Translations under genes and position numbers: made by a program | Notes under the pieces: model-generated | Seen by the model: only the letters and a program-made list of their open reading frames with translations | Databases searched by the model: none | What the model was told of the DNA's origin: nothing | Shown: in pieces, positions 5,053 through 14,032 of the stretch | How the letters are laid out: every line of letters starts with the position of its first letter | Numbering within the stretch: position 1 is the stretch's first letter | Assembly (NCBI GenBank): GCA_002170735.1 | Contig: NHIV01000047.1 | Location: 5,409 to 19,625, forward strand | DNA length: 14,217 nucleotides | Source: a bacterium TMED198 | GTDB taxonomy: Bacteria; Fidelibacterota; Marinisomatia; SCGC-AAA003-L08; D37C17 | Direction: 5' to 3'

Positions 5053-6621
5053 ATGAACAATTCTAAGAATAACATATTAAATAAACAATACGATTTTATT
5101 GTTATAGGATCAGGAATTAGTGGCCTTTGCTCAGCAGCCTTGCTTTCAAAGAGAGGATTTAAGGTTCTTGTACTTGAAAAGCATTTTAAGGCTGGAGGGT
5201 TTACCCATACCTTTAAAAGGCAGGGCTATGAGTGGGACGTTGGTATACACTATATAGGCGATGTTCATAGGCCTTATTCACTTTCAGGGGCATTGTTTAG
5301 ATATATATCTGAAGACAGGTTGCAGTGGAACAAAATGAGTGATAACTATGATAAAATAGTATTTCCAGATAAGGAATATAATTTTTTTTCTCCTAAAGAA
5401 AGGTTTGTAAATGATTTAAAAAATTATTTTCCAGAAGAAAAAAAAGCTATTGATAAATATATGGATTTGCTAGATGTCGTAGCTAAAGCTGGAAAAGCTT
5501 TCTATGCAGCCAAGGCAGCTCCAAAGTTTGTATATAAATTAACCTATTCTATTACCAGCAAGCCATTTATAAAGTTTGCATCGCAAACTACCATGGAAGT
5601 TTTATCTTCGCTTACTACTAATAAAAAACTGATAGGGGTGCTATGTGGACAATGGGGTGATTATGGGCTTCCACCATCGCAAAGTAGTTTTGTAATGCAT
5701 GCCATGGTTGCTCGACACTATCTTGATGGTGCAAACTATCCAATAGGGGGGTCCTCATCAATTGCTGCTTCTATTGTTCCAACAATTCAAAAGAACGGAG
5801 GCCATGTAGTCGTTAGTGCAGGAGTAAAAAAAATAATATGTGAAGGAAAACGAGCTGTAGGAGTTATGCTTGAAGATGGAACAGAAATTGCAGCTAATAA
5901 AATTATAAGTAGTTGTGGGGTGACTAATACCTTTGAGAGGCTATTAAGAGATCAAAGTATCAAAGAGTATGATCAAATTAAGAAGGTTAGTATTTCTGGT
6001 GGCCATCTTTGCCTTCACATTGGAATAAACAGCTCATATAAAAAACTAAACTTAACCGATACTAATATCTGGCTCTATCCAGGATATGATCACGATAAAA
6101 ATGTATTAAATCATAGCCAAAATATGAACTCTGATTTTCCACTTATATACTTTTCATTTCCATCTGCAAAAGATCCAAAGTGGCAGCAAGATCATCCTAA
6201 TAAAACAACCATAGAATTGATTACTATGTCACAGTATGAATGGTTTAAAAGGTGGAGTCAAAAACCATGGAAAAAACGGGGAGAGGAATATGAAAGCACA
6301 AAAGAAGCTCTTAGCATTAGGTTGCTTGATAGAATGTATGAGCATCTTCCTCAACTAAAAGGAAAGGTAGACTACTATGAGTTATCCACACCGCTATCAA
6401 CACGAGACATGTCTCATTATCAGCGTGGTGAGCTTTATGGGCTTAACCATACACCTAATAGGTTTAATCAAAAAAGCTTAACACCTAGAACGAGTATTAA
6501 AAATCTATATTTAACGGGTCAAGATATTGTTAGCGTTGGGTTAACAGGGGCATTATCGGCCGGAGCATTGACAGTCTCCGCAATACTGAGAAAAAATATT
6601 CTTAAAGATTTACGTAAGTAA
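5053..6621 (+). CDS. FAD-dependent oxidoreductase, retinol saturase / carotenoid isomerase (phytoene desaturase-like) family
   Basis: A 522-residue flavoenzyme of the CrtI/RetSat superfamily. The N-terminus holds the dinucleotide-binding fold DFIVIGSGISGLCSAALL (14-31), with Glu42 at the end of the second strand (LVLEK) and then the AGGFTHTF loop. GYEWDVGIHYIGD (58-70) is typical of the RetSat/CrtISO branch, as opposed to classic phytoene desaturases. Near the C-terminus, NLYLTGQDIVSVGLTGALSA is the usual second FAD-binding motif. Members reduce or isomerise polyene chains such as carotenoids and retinol, but many bacterial ones are untested. No phytoene synthase or other carotenoid gene is seen here, so the substrate is open. 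It starts the rightward cluster directly after the 16-base palindrome and has no Shine-Dalgarno site. A 98-base gap separates it from the next gene, so it may form its own transcript. Confidence 0.88.
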   Translation: MNNSKNNILNKQYDFIVIGSGISGLCSAALLSKRGFKVLVLEKHFKAGGFTHTFKRQGYEWDVGIHYIGDVHRPYSLSGALFRYISEDRLQWNKMSDNYDKIVFPDKEYNFFSPKERFVNDLKNYFPEEKKAIDKYMDLLDVVAKAGKAFYAAKAAPKFVYKLTYSITSKPFIKFASQTTMEVLSSLTTNKKLIGVLCGQWGDYGLPPSQSSFVMHAMVARHYLDGANYPIGGSSSIAASIVPTIQKNGGHVVVSAGVKKIICEGKRAVGVMLEDGTEIAANKIISSCGVTNTFERLLRDQSIKEYDQIKKVSISGGHLCLHIGINSSYKKLNLTDTNIWLYPGYDHDKNVLNHSQNMNSDFPLIYFSFPSAKDPKWQQDHPNKTTIELITMSQYEWFKRWSQKPWKKRGEEYESTKEALSIRLLDRMYEHLPQLKGKVDYYELSTPLSTRDMSHYQRGELYGLNHTPNRFNQKSLTPRTSIKNLYLTGQDIVSVGLTGALSAGALTVSAILRKNILKDLRK

Positions 6622-6719: not shown

Positions 6720-7058
6720 ATGTTAGAGATACAATACATGGTTGAGTCAGTTAAAATAATTGCCACAGTTGCTATATTTTTTATATGGTTTATTAGGTAT
6801 GATAATATTAAAAAAGAATTTTTCGAATATGGATACCCAACATGGTTTAGAGATTTAGTGGGAATTTTAAAAATTTCTTTTTCAATTATGCTTCATTCAT
6901 CCTTAGACAACGTAGTAGCAATTGGTTCGATAGGAATAGCAACGCTTATGTCAGGAGCAGTTCTTACTCATATTAAGGTTAAAAGTAATTTTAGAAAGTA
7001 TATAGCATCTGTTGCAATGCTTTCCGTAAGTGCTTTTATACTTTTCAATTCTATTTAA
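6720..7058 (+). CDS. DoxX-like family small membrane protein
   Basis: A 112-residue protein with four predicted membrane helices, near residues 8-23, 42-57, 65-82 and 92-110. The arrangement fits the DoxX-like (DoxX_2) family: EYGYPTWFRDLVGILKIS (36-53) matches the family's 'fGyP.w.r.lvGilei' segment, and LMSGAVLTHIKVK (75-87) its 'M.gAv.tHl' segment before the last helix. Members are often linked to redox or thiol stress but their function is not established. The start follows the AAGGAG site. The stop lies 16 bases before the next gene on the same strand, so it probably belongs to the same transcript as the unknown protein and fumarylacetoacetase. The family call is from pattern memory and is moderately sure. 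Confidence 0.7.
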   Translation: MLEIQYMVESVKIIATVAIFFIWFIRYDNIKKEFFEYGYPTWFRDLVGILKISFSIMLHSSLDNVVAIGSIGIATLMSGAVLTHIKVKSNFRKYIASVAMLSVSAFILFNSI

Positions 7059-7074
7059 TTTTTCAACGCTTAAT

Positions 7075-7956
7075 ATGTTTATACAAAGATCATCATCATA
7101 CTTCTTTAATCAAATCATTGATTATGCAGGATTTTTTCCTCCGTCTCAATTGCCAATAGAAGAGGCCTTCTATAATTTTTTAGATTATCAATATGAAGCT
7201 CATAACAGAATGCTATCTAGATTTATTTGTCCGGCACAACACCTTCAAACGATTTATGATCTATCAATACAGAAAGATACCTCAAATATACCTATTATCA
7301 TTGTAGGTTCAGTGAAAGATATTGAGAATCAAATTCATTGGATGACTATGCATAAGGATATACTGTCCTTTTCAGCAGCTGAAACAAAGTTTGATTACAG
7401 AAAAGATGGCCTTACAAGCGTTGAAAAAATAATCAATAATGATATTAACCTTAATAAAATATTTTTAGAATCTGATATTGATTTAAAAGATTTCAGGTTT
7501 ATATCATTCTTAGATAATATATCTAAGAATACTTCCTTTGGTTTGAAAATTAGATGCGGCGGAGCAATAGCTAAAAGCGTGCCACATGTAAACCTCCTTT
7601 CAAAATTATTTATACTATGCGCTGAAAGAGCTATACCTTTAAAATTTACTGCAGGCTTACACCGTGCAGTTAGACACATTAACAATTACAATAATATAGA
7701 GCATGGTTTTATTAATGTTTTTTTAGGAGGAATTGCAGCATATAGTGGCATCAAAGATGAGATATTTATTTCGAGTATTATAGAATGCCAAAATAAAAAT
7801 AAATTTGTTTTTTCTGATAGTGGAATTAGTTTTGAAAATATTCAAATTAAAGTGGCTGATATAAAAAAAGCACGAGAAAAAGTTACAAGTTTTGGAAGTT
7901 GTAATTTTATTAAACCAATTGAGGATCTAACAAATATGGAGTTAATTGTAAAATGA
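7075..7956 (+). CDS. Conserved protein of unknown function coupled to fumarylacetoacetase
   Basis: A 293-residue protein, soluble by its composition, with no signal peptide. It matches a conserved uncharacterised bacterial family that I recall only by its motifs. These are IDYAGFFPPSQLPIEEA (15-31), SRFICPA (48-54), GLKIRCGG (156-163), PLKFTAGLHRAVRH (188-201), HGFINVF (210-216) and FGSCNFIKPIEDL (273-285). The alternation of strands and helices, with K158/R160 and K190/H196/R200 at strand ends, suggests a TIM-barrel-like enzyme; this is inference. The frame is open from 7030, but that start would overlap the DoxX-like gene. The ATG at 7075 gives the family's usual N-terminus, though without a Shine-Dalgarno site. 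Its stop overlaps the fumarylacetoacetase start in ATGA, so the two are translationally coupled. A role in homogentisate breakdown, for example an isomerase or aldolase step, is a hypothesis. Confidence 0.8.
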   Translation: MFIQRSSSYFFNQIIDYAGFFPPSQLPIEEAFYNFLDYQYEAHNRMLSRFICPAQHLQTIYDLSIQKDTSNIPIIIVGSVKDIENQIHWMTMHKDILSFSAAETKFDYRKDGLTSVEKIINNDINLNKIFLESDIDLKDFRFISFLDNISKNTSFGLKIRCGGAIAKSVPHVNLLSKLFILCAERAIPLKFTAGLHRAVRHINNYNNIEHGFINVFLGGIAAYSGIKDEIFISSIIECQNKNKFVFSDSGISFENIQIKVADIKKAREKVTSFGSCNFIKPIEDLTNMELIVK

Positions 7957-9188: not shown

Positions 9189-9802
9189 CCGTAAAAAAAC
9201 AAAAAGATTTTATTTGGTCTGAGTATTACAAAATTCATCATGAGAGGCCTCCAAATCATACACTTGTTAAGGGTCTAGAATTTTTTATTTCTAATACTAA
9301 GATTTTACCTAAAACAGCTGTTGATATTGGCTGTGGCAATGGTCATGATACTGTAGAACTATTAAAAAATAATTTTTCTGTATTGGCTATGGATAGGGAG
9401 GATGAAGCGATTAACCTTTTAATGAGCAATATTAATCAAAAATCTTCATTTTTAAAAACAGAGGTATCATCAATGGAAACATTTGTAGTTCCAGAGGTTG
9501 CGTTAATAAATGCTAGCTATAGCCTACCATTTTGCAATCCATCTGTATTTGGTTCATTTATGAATATGATAAAAAATAACATACTAGATGGGGGTGTATT
9601 TTGTGGTCAATTGTTTGGGGTTGATGATGATTGGAGCTATCGAAATGATATGAACTTTCATACAAAAGAAGAAGTTAAAGAAATTTTCAAAAACTTTGAT
9701 TTAATTTTATTTGAAGAAGTTAATGAAGATAGTACAATCGCAGATGGCAGTCCAAAGCATTGGCATCTTTTTCATGTTGTTGCATCCAAAAATAATGTTT
9801 AA
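9185..9802 (+). CDS. SAM-dependent class I methyltransferase, substrate unknown
   Basis: A 205-residue Rossmann-fold methyltransferase. Motif I is [11 protein letters not shown] (46-56), followed by an acidic strand end at VLAMDRE (66-72). NASYSLPFC (109-117) is the motif IV region; [10 protein letters not shown] (141-150) and [15 protein letters not shown] (188-202) close the domain. The layout is TehB-like, and the KHWH..FHVV ending is one I associate with a widespread uncharacterised subgroup. The ATG overlaps the fumarylacetoacetase stop and has an AAGGAA site seven bases upstream (9172-9177). Its last eight bases overlap the acetyl-CoA synthetase start. The coupling suggests a function tied to aromatic amino acid or acetate metabolism, but the methyl acceptor cannot be told from sequence. 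Confidence 0.85.
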
Positions 9803-11720
9803 GAATAGCTATAGAGATCAGGATAAAGCATTTATTAAGTCCTCTAGAAACTATGATGAAATATATACAAAGTCTATTGACAAATCTGATCAATTTTGGT
9901 CGGAGGTTGCCAAAAGAATATCATGGTTTAAGAGTTGGGACAAAGTCTCAAGTGTTGATTTCAATTCTGCTGATATAAAGTGGTTTGAAGGCGGGAAGCT
10001 TAATGCCTGCTATAATTGTATAGACAGGCACATTGAATCTGGACACGGAGATCAAACTGCATTAATATGGGAGGGCAATGATCCAGATGAAGATAAGCGC
10101 TTCACGTATAATCAACTATATAAAGAAGTATGTAAGACAGCCAATCTATTAAAAAAGAATGGAGTAAAGAAAGGAGATAGAGTTTGCATCTATATGCAAA
10201 TGATTCCAGAGCTTGCTTTTGCGATGCTTGCATGTGCTAGAATTGGAGCAGTACATTCAATTGTTTTTGGTGCATTTTCTTCTGATGCCCTTAGAGATAG
10301 AATAAACGATTCAAAGTGTAAAGCATTAATGACCCAGGATGCTGGAGTAAGAGGACTTAAGTATGATATACCAATGAAATCAAATGCTGATGTAGCACTA
10401 CAAGAATGCCCTTCAATAAAAAAAGTTATTGTAGTTCAAAGAACAGGTGCAGATATATCAATGCTAAGAGATAGAGATATATGGTTGCATGATGGAATGA
10501 ATTCTGTGAGCTCAGATTGTCCAGCAGAGCATATGGATGCAGAAGATCCGCTGTTTATATTATATACTTCTGGATCAACAGGAAAACCAAAAGGAGTACT
10601 ACATACAACTGGGGGATATATGGTCTACACCTCATACACTCATGAAATAATTTTTGACTATCATCCAGATGATGTTTATTGGTGTACGGCAGATATAGGA
10701 TGGATAACTGGTCATTCATATATTATATATGGTCCTTTATCAAACAGGGCCATTAGTATTATGTTTGAAGGCGTTCCAAACTACCCAGACTTTGGACGTT
10801 TTTGGCAGGTGGTAGAAAAACATAAAATTAATATTTTTTATACAGCTCCAACAGCTCTTAGAGCGTTGATGAAGGAAGGCAACGATTTTGTTGCCAAGCA
10901 TGACAGATCCTCATTAAAACTTTTAGGTAGTGTGGGTGAAACAATTAAGGAACCAGAGTGGAGATGGTACTATAATGTTGTAGGAGAAAAAAGATGTCCA
11001 ATAGTTGATACTTGGTGGCAAACAGAAACAGGCGGCATCTTAATAACTCCACTTCCTACTGAAAAAAATTTAAAACCAGGATCAGCATTCAAGCCTTTTT
11101 TTGGTATTGAACCTATCATATTAAATGAAAAAGGTGAGGAGATAAAGACTAATGATACAGAAGGACTGCTTGCCATTAAGCACTCATGGCCGGGACAAAT
11201 GCGGACTGTATATGGTGACCATCAAAGGTTTTTTGATACATATTTTTCTCAGTTTAGAGGTTACTACTTTACAGGTGACGGCGCTAAAAGAGATAAAGAT
11301 GGTTGTTACTGGATAACAGGCAGGGTAGATGATGTTTTGAATGTATCCGGTCATCGTTTAGGAACGGCAGAGATTGAAGGAGCAATTGGAAAACACCCAA
11401 TGGTTGCTGAAGCTGCAGTTGTTGGATATCCTCATGATGTAAAAGGTGAGGGTATATATGCATTTGTTACTTTAATGACAGGCAAGAAAAATAATGGTTC
11501 AATAGATGCAGAAATAAAACTTAAGGTGCGTAAAATAATAGGACCACATGCCTCACCAAATAAAATTCAATTTTCTGATGCTCTGCCTAAAACACGATCA
11601 GGAAAGATCATGCGAAGAATACTTCGTAAAATTGCAGAGAATAAAATAAATGAGCTTGGGGACACCTCAACACTGGCTGATCCAAGTGTGGTTGATAGCC
11701 TTATATCAAACAAGAAGTAG
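9795..11720 (+). CDS. acsA: Acetyl-CoA synthetase (AMP-forming)
   Basis: It activates acetate with ATP and CoA through acetyl-AMP, in the cytoplasm. From the ATG at 9795 the protein is 641 residues, close to the family's usual 650. Motifs in order are an N-terminal ACAS segment, [11 protein letters not shown] (257-267, nucleotide loop), [10 protein letters not shown] (405-414, with the Trp that limits the acyl pocket to acetate), [30 protein letters not shown] near 490-520, and the terminal [12 protein letters not shown] with the catalytic, acetylation-regulated Lys near 604. The frame is open from 9711, but starts before 9795 lie inside the methyltransferase gene. The chosen start overlaps that gene by eight bases and has no Shine-Dalgarno site. 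The WWQTETGG pocket argues for acetate rather than acetoacetate. Its TAG is followed at once by a stop codon on the other strand. Confidence 0.95.
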
Positions 11721-11777
11721 TTACAGTTTTTTTATAAGTTCAATATGCTTTGGAGATGTTCCGCAACACCCGCCTGC
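11721..11777 (-). pseudogene. Out-of-frame true C-terminus of the homocysteine S-methyltransferase gene
   Basis: In the frame shifted by one base from the main reading frame, this stretch encodes AGGCCGTSPKHIELIKKL followed by TAA. That is the canonical zinc-binding end of the family (GGCCGT.P.HI). The match is too exact to be chance and marks a one-base deletion at or next to 11777-11779. No slippery heptamer is present at the junction, which reads GCTAGTGTGCAGGC on the coding strand, so programmed frameshifting is unlikely. Confidence 0.85.
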
Positions 11778-12568
11778 ACACTAGCACCAAGGCTTAAAGC
11801 CTCTCTTGCAACAGATACAAATTCTTCATCTTTAGCATATTCATCTATCACTCCATCAAGACTAGGCTCACCAATACCAAGGTTGGGATAGATTCCCCAT
11901 TTAGTAGAACAATTATTGGCTAGAACTGACATTGCATCTTTAGTTCTATTTAATTCATTGCAGTTTAGCAATACACAGTTAACATTAAATTTTTTTATTG
12001 AATCAAGTGCCAAGTTAAGTTTTTCTCCAGATTGGAGGTGATTTGAATTTTTCAGGTTAAAGGATACCCAAGTTAAAGGATTGTATCTTTTAATTGATTC
12101 AAGGCATGCAGTGGTTTCAGAAATATTGTTCATAGTTTCAAGAATTAATCCATCTACACCAGCAAGAATCAATGCCTTTCCTATTAGTGAAAACTCATTT
12201 TTGGCTTTTTCATATCCAGGATATAGATCAGGTGAGTAGCAATCTTCAAGAGGAGCAATGGCACCCAATACCTTGGCTTGTTTTTTTGCAGATTCAAGGG
12301 CAATTGATACAGCTGTCTTCATTGACTCATGGGCCATAATCTTTGCTTTTTCCAGGCTTATCTTTGTTTTTATATATGCTCTTGCAGTTGTTCTAAAGGT
12401 ATTGGTAGTTATATAGTTGCAACCTGAATCAACATATTCATCGTGAATTTGTTTTACCAGGTTAGGGTGTGTAGTATTAGCCCACGCCGACCATATATAC
12501 TTTGGTAATTTAACCCCTCTTTTAATTATCTCAGAGCCCATTGCACCATCAAGTATATAAGGGGCCAT
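11732..12568 (-). CDS. Homocysteine S-methyltransferase family protein, C-terminus frameshifted
   Basis: A betaine/S-methylmethionine-type homocysteine methyltransferase TIM barrel, 278 residues as read. It begins with the family's ILDGAMGSEIIKRG (5-18), followed by ITTNTFRTT (53-61), ETMNNISET (144-152) and LLNCNELN (200-207), where C203 is the first zinc ligand. The family should end with a GGCCGT motif carrying two more zinc cysteines. Here the frame instead reads GASVQAGVAEHLQSILNL and stops. One frame over, starting at 11777, the DNA reads AGGCCGTSPKHIELIKKL and then a stop at 11721-11723. A single missing base near 11777-11779 explains this; the repaired protein would be 282 residues. 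As read, the enzyme would lack two zinc ligands and be inactive. A sequencing or assembly error is the main alternative. The start lies three bases after the glycyl-tRNA synthetase stop, so it is the operon's last gene. Confidence 0.85.
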   Translation of the reverse strand: MAPYILDGAMGSEIIKRGVKLPKYIWSAWANTTHPNLVKQIHDEYVDSGCNYITTNTFRTTARAYIKTKISLEKAKIMAHESMKTAVSIALESAKKQAKVLGAIAPLEDCYSPDLYPGYEKAKNEFSLIGKALILAGVDGLILETMNNISETTACLESIKRYNPLTWVSFNLKNSNHLQSGEKLNLALDSIKKFNVNCVLLNCNELNRTKDAMSVLANNCSTKWGIYPNLGIGEPSLDGVIDEYAKDEEFVSVAREALSLGASVQAGVAEHLQSILNL

Positions 12569-12571
12569 AAA

Positions 12572-14032
12572 TTAGGAGTTCATGGATTCAGACAATGCAG
12601 CCTTTATTTGATTGATACTAATTCTTTTTTGCTCCATCGTGTCTCTATCCCTAAGTGTAACAGTTTGATCTTCAATCGTATCATGGTCAACAGTAATACC
12701 AAAAGGAGTGCCAGCTTCATCTTGGCGTCTATACCTCTTTCCTATAGAGCCTCCTGCATCGTAGAATGAGCTAAACTCTGATCTCAGATCATCAACAATT
12801 TTTTGAGCAATCTCTGGCATGCCCTGCTTGTTCATTAATGGAAAAACAGCAACAGTTACAGGAGCAATTTTTGAAGAAAGCTTTAGGACGTTTCTAGTCT
12901 CTCCATTAATTTCTTCTGTGGTAAATGCATCGGCAAGTACCGTAAGCATAGCCCTATCAACGCCGGCTGATGCTTCAACAACAGCTGGGGTAATATGCTC
13001 ATTGTTGGATTGATCAAAGTAAGTTAGTTTCTTATTGCTGTGCTCCATATGCTTGCTTAGATCATAGGTTCCCCTATCAGCAATTCCCTCAAGCTCTGAC
13101 CATCCAAAATCAAAACGATACTCAATGTCATAGCAAGCAGATGAATAGTGGGCCAATTCGTCACTACCATGAGCCCTAAGTCTTAGTTTTTCAGAATTGA
13201 TTCCTAAACTTTTAAACCAGTTTAGCCTTTCTTGCTTCCAATAGTCAAGCCATTTACTAGTTTCATCTTCTTTACAAAAGAACTCCATCTCCATTTGCTC
13301 AAATTCTCGAGTACGAAAAATAAAGTTACCAGTTGTAATTTCGTTTCTAAAAGCCTTACCAATTTGGCCTATTCCAAAGGGGAGCTTTTTACGGGACGTT
13401 GTCTGTGCATTAATAAAATTAACAAATATTCCTTGAGCAGTTTCCGGTCTTAGATAAACAACAGAGCCAGAGTCTTCAACAGGACCTGCAAATGTTTTAA
13501 ACATTAGGTTAAACTGTCTCATGTTTGTCCAGTCACCCACATTGTTATCTTCAGGATCAATTACACCACTATCTATCAATATTTCTCCACTTTGTTGAGA
13601 AACTTTATTTAATGATGTAACGATTGATTGGACAATTTCTTCATTAATTTTTTCAGGGGCTTTGAGCTTTAGCATGTTACATAGCTCTTTAATAATCGTA
13701 ATATCCTGTGACTCAATTAGATGATCAAGCCTGTATCGCTTTTTAGTTTCTTTGTTATCAACTAGAGGATCATGGAAATTATCAACATGCCCACTCGCCT
13801 CCCAAACTTTTGGATGCATAAGTATTGAGGCATCCATTCCAATAACATTTTCTCTTGCTGTTACAACGCTTTTCCACCAATAATTTTTTATATTTCTTTT
13901 TAATTCAACTCCTAATGGGCCGTAGTCCCATGTTGATCCAAGCCCTCCATATATTTCACTACTTTGAAATACAAATCCCCTTTGCTTAGATAGAGAAGTT
14001 AAAACATCTAGTATTGAGGTTTCTTTTTTCAT
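12572..14032 (-). CDS. glyQS: Glycyl-tRNA synthetase, single-chain dimeric (class IIa) type
   Basis: It charges tRNA-Gly with glycine in the cytoplasm. The 486-residue protein is the eukaryote/archaeal-type homodimeric enzyme, not the alpha2-beta2 type common in Proteobacteria. Visible signatures are SSEIYGGLGSTWDYGPLGVE (24-43), VYLRPETAQGIFVNF (192-206), motif 2 from AFRNEI (227-232) through FRTREFEQMEMEFF (239-252), and motif 3 AGVDRAMLTVLADAF (356-370). The C-terminal anticodon-binding domain begins near PVTVAVFPL (391-399) and includes RYRRQDEAGTPFGITVD. Length is normal and no key motif is missing. The ATG overlaps the topA stop in ATGA, with no separate Shine-Dalgarno site. The homocysteine methyltransferase gene follows three bases after the stop. 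Confidence 0.96.
   Translation of the reverse strand: MKKETSILDVLTSLSKQRGFVFQSSEIYGGLGSTWDYGPLGVELKRNIKNYWWKSVVTARENVIGMDASILMHPKVWEASGHVDNFHDPLVDNKETKKRYRLDHLIESQDITIIKELCNMLKLKAPEKINEEIVQSIVTSLNKVSQQSGEILIDSGVIDPEDNNVGDWTNMRQFNLMFKTFAGPVEDSGSVVYLRPETAQGIFVNFINAQTTSRKKLPFGIGQIGKAFRNEITTGNFIFRTREFEQMEMEFFCKEDETSKWLDYWKQERLNWFKSLGINSEKLRLRAHGSDELAHYSSACYDIEYRFDFGWSELEGIADRGTYDLSKHMEHSNKKLTYFDQSNNEHITPAVVEASAGVDRAMLTVLADAFTTEEINGETRNVLKLSSKIAPVTVAVFPLMNKQGMPEIAQKIVDDLRSEFSSFYDAGGSIGKRYRRQDEAGTPFGITVDHDTIEDQTVTLRDRDTMEQKRISINQIKAALSESMNS

Follow-up and report, generated by a model that had tools for sequence, protein, structure and literature searches.

Enzymes of the homocysteine S-methyltransferase (HMT) family bind zinc through three cysteines, one on an Asn-Cys strand and two in a GGCC motif. 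Among the nearest described systems to the gene treated here are the single-domain NCBIfam model NF007020/PRK09485 and a solved relative, 5dml, which matches its product with E 5.8e-16. The gene lies in an N-free stretch of 14.2 kb (the window, i.e., the whole of the DNA analysed; positions 5409-19625 of contig 4, with Ns at 5408 and 19626) in the draft genome of a member of a Marinimicrobia family. Its main frame, 11732..12568 on the minus strand, encodes 278 aa, and the sole Pfam match is PF02574 (E 2.1e-40; 139.9 bits against a curated cut-off of 22), from which methyl transfer activity is predicted. Scored against NF007020 (MmuM-like equivalog), the product reaches 110.1 bits and the product of an intact relative (L002) 151.9 bits; since both fall below the curated cut-off of 215, the subfamily name is unwarranted for either. 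Unlike stand-alone PF02574 HMTs, the gene has an in-frame product without the C-terminal Cys-Cys, the codons for which are found one frame over.

The first-pass annotation had claimed that the main frame has no Cys-Cys motif at its end and that the same DNA read one base over gives the canonical end of the family and a stop, and both statements are borne out. The main-frame product ends GASVQAGVAEHLQSILNL. N202 and C203 are kept, the same pair being aligned in 79/79 relatives, and we take C203 to be the first zinc cysteine. The GGCCG segment, which presumably supplies the second and third, is absent from the main frame, where V268 and A269 occupy two columns that hold Cys in all 79 relatives. 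In the −1 frame, 11721..11780 (minus strand) reads GGCCGTSPKHIELIKKL and then a stop (CAGGCCGTSPKHIELIKKL plus stop, as the first-pass annotation has it), that is, the remainder of the gene with its GGCCG zinc motif and canonical tail. A 24-position profile built from the tails of the 79 relatives was searched against the 933 six-frame segments of the window that have at least 8 residues between stops: the −1 tail scored 39.3 bits (E 1.9e-11), the runner-up had E 0.088, and the main-frame segment did not appear at E ≤ 10. The match of the out-of-frame tail is thus above chance. Directly upstream of this tail the −1 frame has a TAG at 11783-11781; with the GGCC codons downstream, the change of frame is therefore confined to about 11775..11783 (minus strand). 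The stop of the tail abuts, with zero gap, that of the convergent acetate-CoA ligase gene (9711-11720; TIGR02188, 974 bits against a cut-off of 725), while the gene on the other side of the HMT, 12572-14032, is, judging from its sequence, presumably a glycyl-tRNA synthetase.

For comparison at the 3' end, named bacterial genomes were scanned with a 12-homologue alignment, and the best 80 of 84 relatives were kept, 56 of them with Marinimicrobia or Neomarinimicrobiota in their titles. The scan was unselected for the CCG motif, because its two patterns sit elsewhere in the protein. By motif search, 70 of the 80 have the in-frame CCG end; of the remaining 10, nine have CCG behind another residue and the last, L090, is truncated where its contig stops. 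All 79 judgeable relatives among the best 80 of 84 therefore carry CCG in frame, and no assembly but this one shows the break. In a second set, L002-L030, the CCG end is present in 28 of 29 loci, the exception, L029, being a MetH for which the end retrieved lies at another place. Because several of its contigs recur among the 80 named loci, this second set is no independent sample. The best relatives in the scan, from Candidatus Marinimicrobia bacterium Ct9H_300m.P24 (L069) and ERR598971_bin.15 (L063), match at E 1e-94, their best segment (residues 5-278 of the query) being 52% identical, and both end in frame with VVGGCCGSNPKHIELLKNL, a close likeness of the out-of-frame tail of our gene. When genome contigs were scanned with a single protein, 35 stretches matched, and an alignment scan of viral contigs gave 12 matches; no relative was confirmed in either scan. 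Among the genomes examined, this draft alone represents its genus.

The body of the gene shows no sign of decay, frame shift aside, in agreement with the first-pass view that the rest is intact. Aligned with the 79 relatives, it departs at one of 26 near-invariant columns; among the relatives themselves, 52 have no departure, 23 have one and four have more. Identity to the nearest same-family homologues is 53%, inside the range of about 30 to 75% for other genes of the contig.

The source draft comprises 1,138,084 bases in 80 contigs and is 65.86% complete. Although the window has no N, and the nearest N is 2.4 kb from the frame shift, scattered and mostly single Ns occur elsewhere: the first 11 stretches sampled (L052-L062) hold 235, of which 226 fall in ORFs of at least 100 codons, and third codon positions account for 135 of these 226. 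This pattern looks like the signature of merged variant strains, i.e., of a multi-strain consensus; 20 stretches of relatives (387,936 bases) contain no N. Among the 80 named loci, 14 contain Ns, as single runs (100, 99, 8 and 2) in four and scattered in 10. All 10 of the latter come from isolates named NAT, SAT, MED, RS, SP or TMED and are likewise biased to the third position, where 292 of their 426 ORF Ns fall, but the link to isolate name is not absolute, since L087, L092 and L116, with like names, and MED-G176 and MED-G177 are N-free. The TMED genomes are, we assume, part of the related Mediterranean set of PMC5507172. Nine of the 10 scattered-N loci have accession prefixes within the ranges of PMC5769542, where primary contigs were merged by Minimus2 at 95% identity and a contig cut-off of 7.5 kb is given for the Mediterranean set; the smallest of the 30 contigs of the draft that were seen (7568 bases) is near that cut-off. 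From this we infer that the draft belongs to the Minimus2-merged series. Given an N-free 14.2 kb and 2.4 kb to the nearest N, however, the shift probably lies in the sequence of one primary contig and does not stem from merging.

A sample of the draft was also searched for further indels (331,379 of the 1,138,084 bases; 59 gene places, or 56,877 bases, the HMT included). No two-frame split was found at any of the 59 places matching a relative, so indels do not abound in the draft as a whole, although the test has little power close to the ends of genes, where the HMT itself shows only as an early end. Early ends, defined as an unaligned query tail of more than 30 aa at identity above 40% and away from a contig edge, gave five rows at four places: the HMT; L057, a 68-residue match within a 902 aa query; L165, where the frame is open for 61 codons further; and L166, with two rows and no stop found. 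A second break among the last three is possible. Ten short neighbouring ORFs, chosen by eye in the first sample, were compared with Pfam; five matched and five did not, and no domain was split across frames.

A search of the draft for MetH returned the HMT gene and one short match under the cut-off (E 2.5e-6 over 93 profile positions), with about a third of the genome missing, and no MetE was found in the 65.86% that is present. Because no MetH beyond these two and no MetE turned up in this partial genome, a real loss of the HMT might be costly. On the other hand, 16 of 22 sampled same-family genomes have no match to a stand-alone HMT, so its loss is tolerated in the family. As a separate observation, among 23 same-family genomes (17 of them at least 80% complete), MetH exceeds the curated cut-off in five, which belong to a single genus (g6), and MetE turned up in none. 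Classical methionine synthase of any kind may be missing from most of the family. Our literature searches found no paper on a frameshifted or pseudogene HMT losing zinc binding, and on Marinimicrobia methionine auxotrophy or MetH gave a match on thiazole synthases only.

Two overlapping frames, both in good condition, raise the thought of programmed −1 ribosomal frameshifting or another form of recoding that would join them into the full enzyme, and slippery-type heptamers are indeed present. These, AAAAAAA and AAAAAAC at 11733-11726, are the only double-triplet heptamers, and the site of the only homopolymer of at least four bases, in 11840-11721; their position, at and past the stop of the main frame and on the downstream side of the GGCC codons, means that a slip on them could not bring the motif back. 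At the junction there is neither a slippery heptamer, as the first-pass annotation had also noted, nor a homopolymer, and the predicted RNA fold around and after it is unremarkable (z −1.09; equalled or bettered by 26 of 200 shuffles). The comparison with relatives that the first-pass annotation had proposed as a check leaves a programmed shift unsupported, the 79 loci reaching the 3' end all being in one frame, with no conserved two-frame layout. With neither a junction heptamer nor such a layout, the candidacy of the locus as a programmed −1 frameshift gene was rejected, and we regard recoding of any kind as highly improbable. Hardly more credible is a functional, zinc-free derivative in which the shortened protein has taken up a new role: the conserved body would suit it, but recency or error explains that conservation equally well, and we rejected the idea because no examined relative shares the shortened end.

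What is left are the two readings that the first-pass annotation had offered, a sequence error or a fresh inactivation, and absence of the shift from 79/79 relatives supports that pair. We lean slightly, at little better than even odds, to an error in the draft: an ordinary stand-alone Marinimicrobia HMT gene would be intact in the living population, the draft would be off by one base, and the break would remove two of the three zinc-binding cysteines on paper only. This is consistent with Cys at both columns, in frame, in every relative that reaches the 3' end, with an other-frame tail that is still canonical (E 1.9e-11) and with a body that keeps 25 of 26 near-invariant columns, a single departure being found in 23 of the 79 relatives as well. 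The draft itself, in 80 contigs and 65.86% complete, with third-position Ns as in merged variant strains, points the same way, as does the scattered-N pattern shared by 10 loci among the 80 named ones, nine of them with accession prefixes in the ranges of PMC5769542 (Minimus2 merging); nor is there a clear substitute enzyme (MetH or MetE) in the incomplete genome. The same draft, however, has its shift in an N-free 14.2 kb stretch, 2.4 kb from the nearest N and at a junction without a homopolymer, has no two-frame split in 59 gene places of a 331 kb sample, comes from a family that tolerates the loss (16 of 22 genomes without a stand-alone HMT), and is itself placed in the Minimus2 series by inference.

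Those points favour instead a genuine loss-of-function allele of recent origin, in which the strain or population sampled has changed by one base and the gene has had no time to decay, and to which we give somewhat less than an even chance; the two readings thus carry nearly equal weight. The lack of an N within 2.4 kb, of a homopolymer and of two-frame splits (0/59) and the patchy occurrence of stand-alone HMT in the family speak for the allele; the still canonical tail frame and body, the position of this draft as the only genome of its genus among those examined, and the failure to find another full homocysteine methyltransferase in an incomplete genome speak against it. Were the allele real, the product would keep C203 and lose the Cys-Cys pair, and because of that loss it should neither hold the catalytic zinc nor activate homocysteine. 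A more specific version, in which the only homocysteine methyltransferase detected in a strain of this Marinimicrobia genus has just been lost and the strain, caught before further decay, lives on the methionine of its neighbours, seems to us unlikely. Overall, we read the HMT break as either a draft-genome error or a very recent, unremarkable loss. If the former, it cautions that one base in a consensus draft can erase the zinc-binding end of an enzyme from the annotation, and metabolic reconstructions would then mis-score such an enzyme; a real allele would mark a new step towards methionine dependence in a marine lineage.

Two minor observations concern other sequences. Within the window, a 308 aa ORF at 7030-7956 (plus strand), just upstream of the fumarylacetoacetase gene, matches nothing in Pfam or NCBIfam at E 0.001. 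Elsewhere in the draft, L056 (4740-4895), L062 (8350-8530) and L060 (556-750) carry alike short C-terminal segments on different proteins, e.g., LDIVILVNFILE, which to our eye resemble a dockerin-like or sorting tail.
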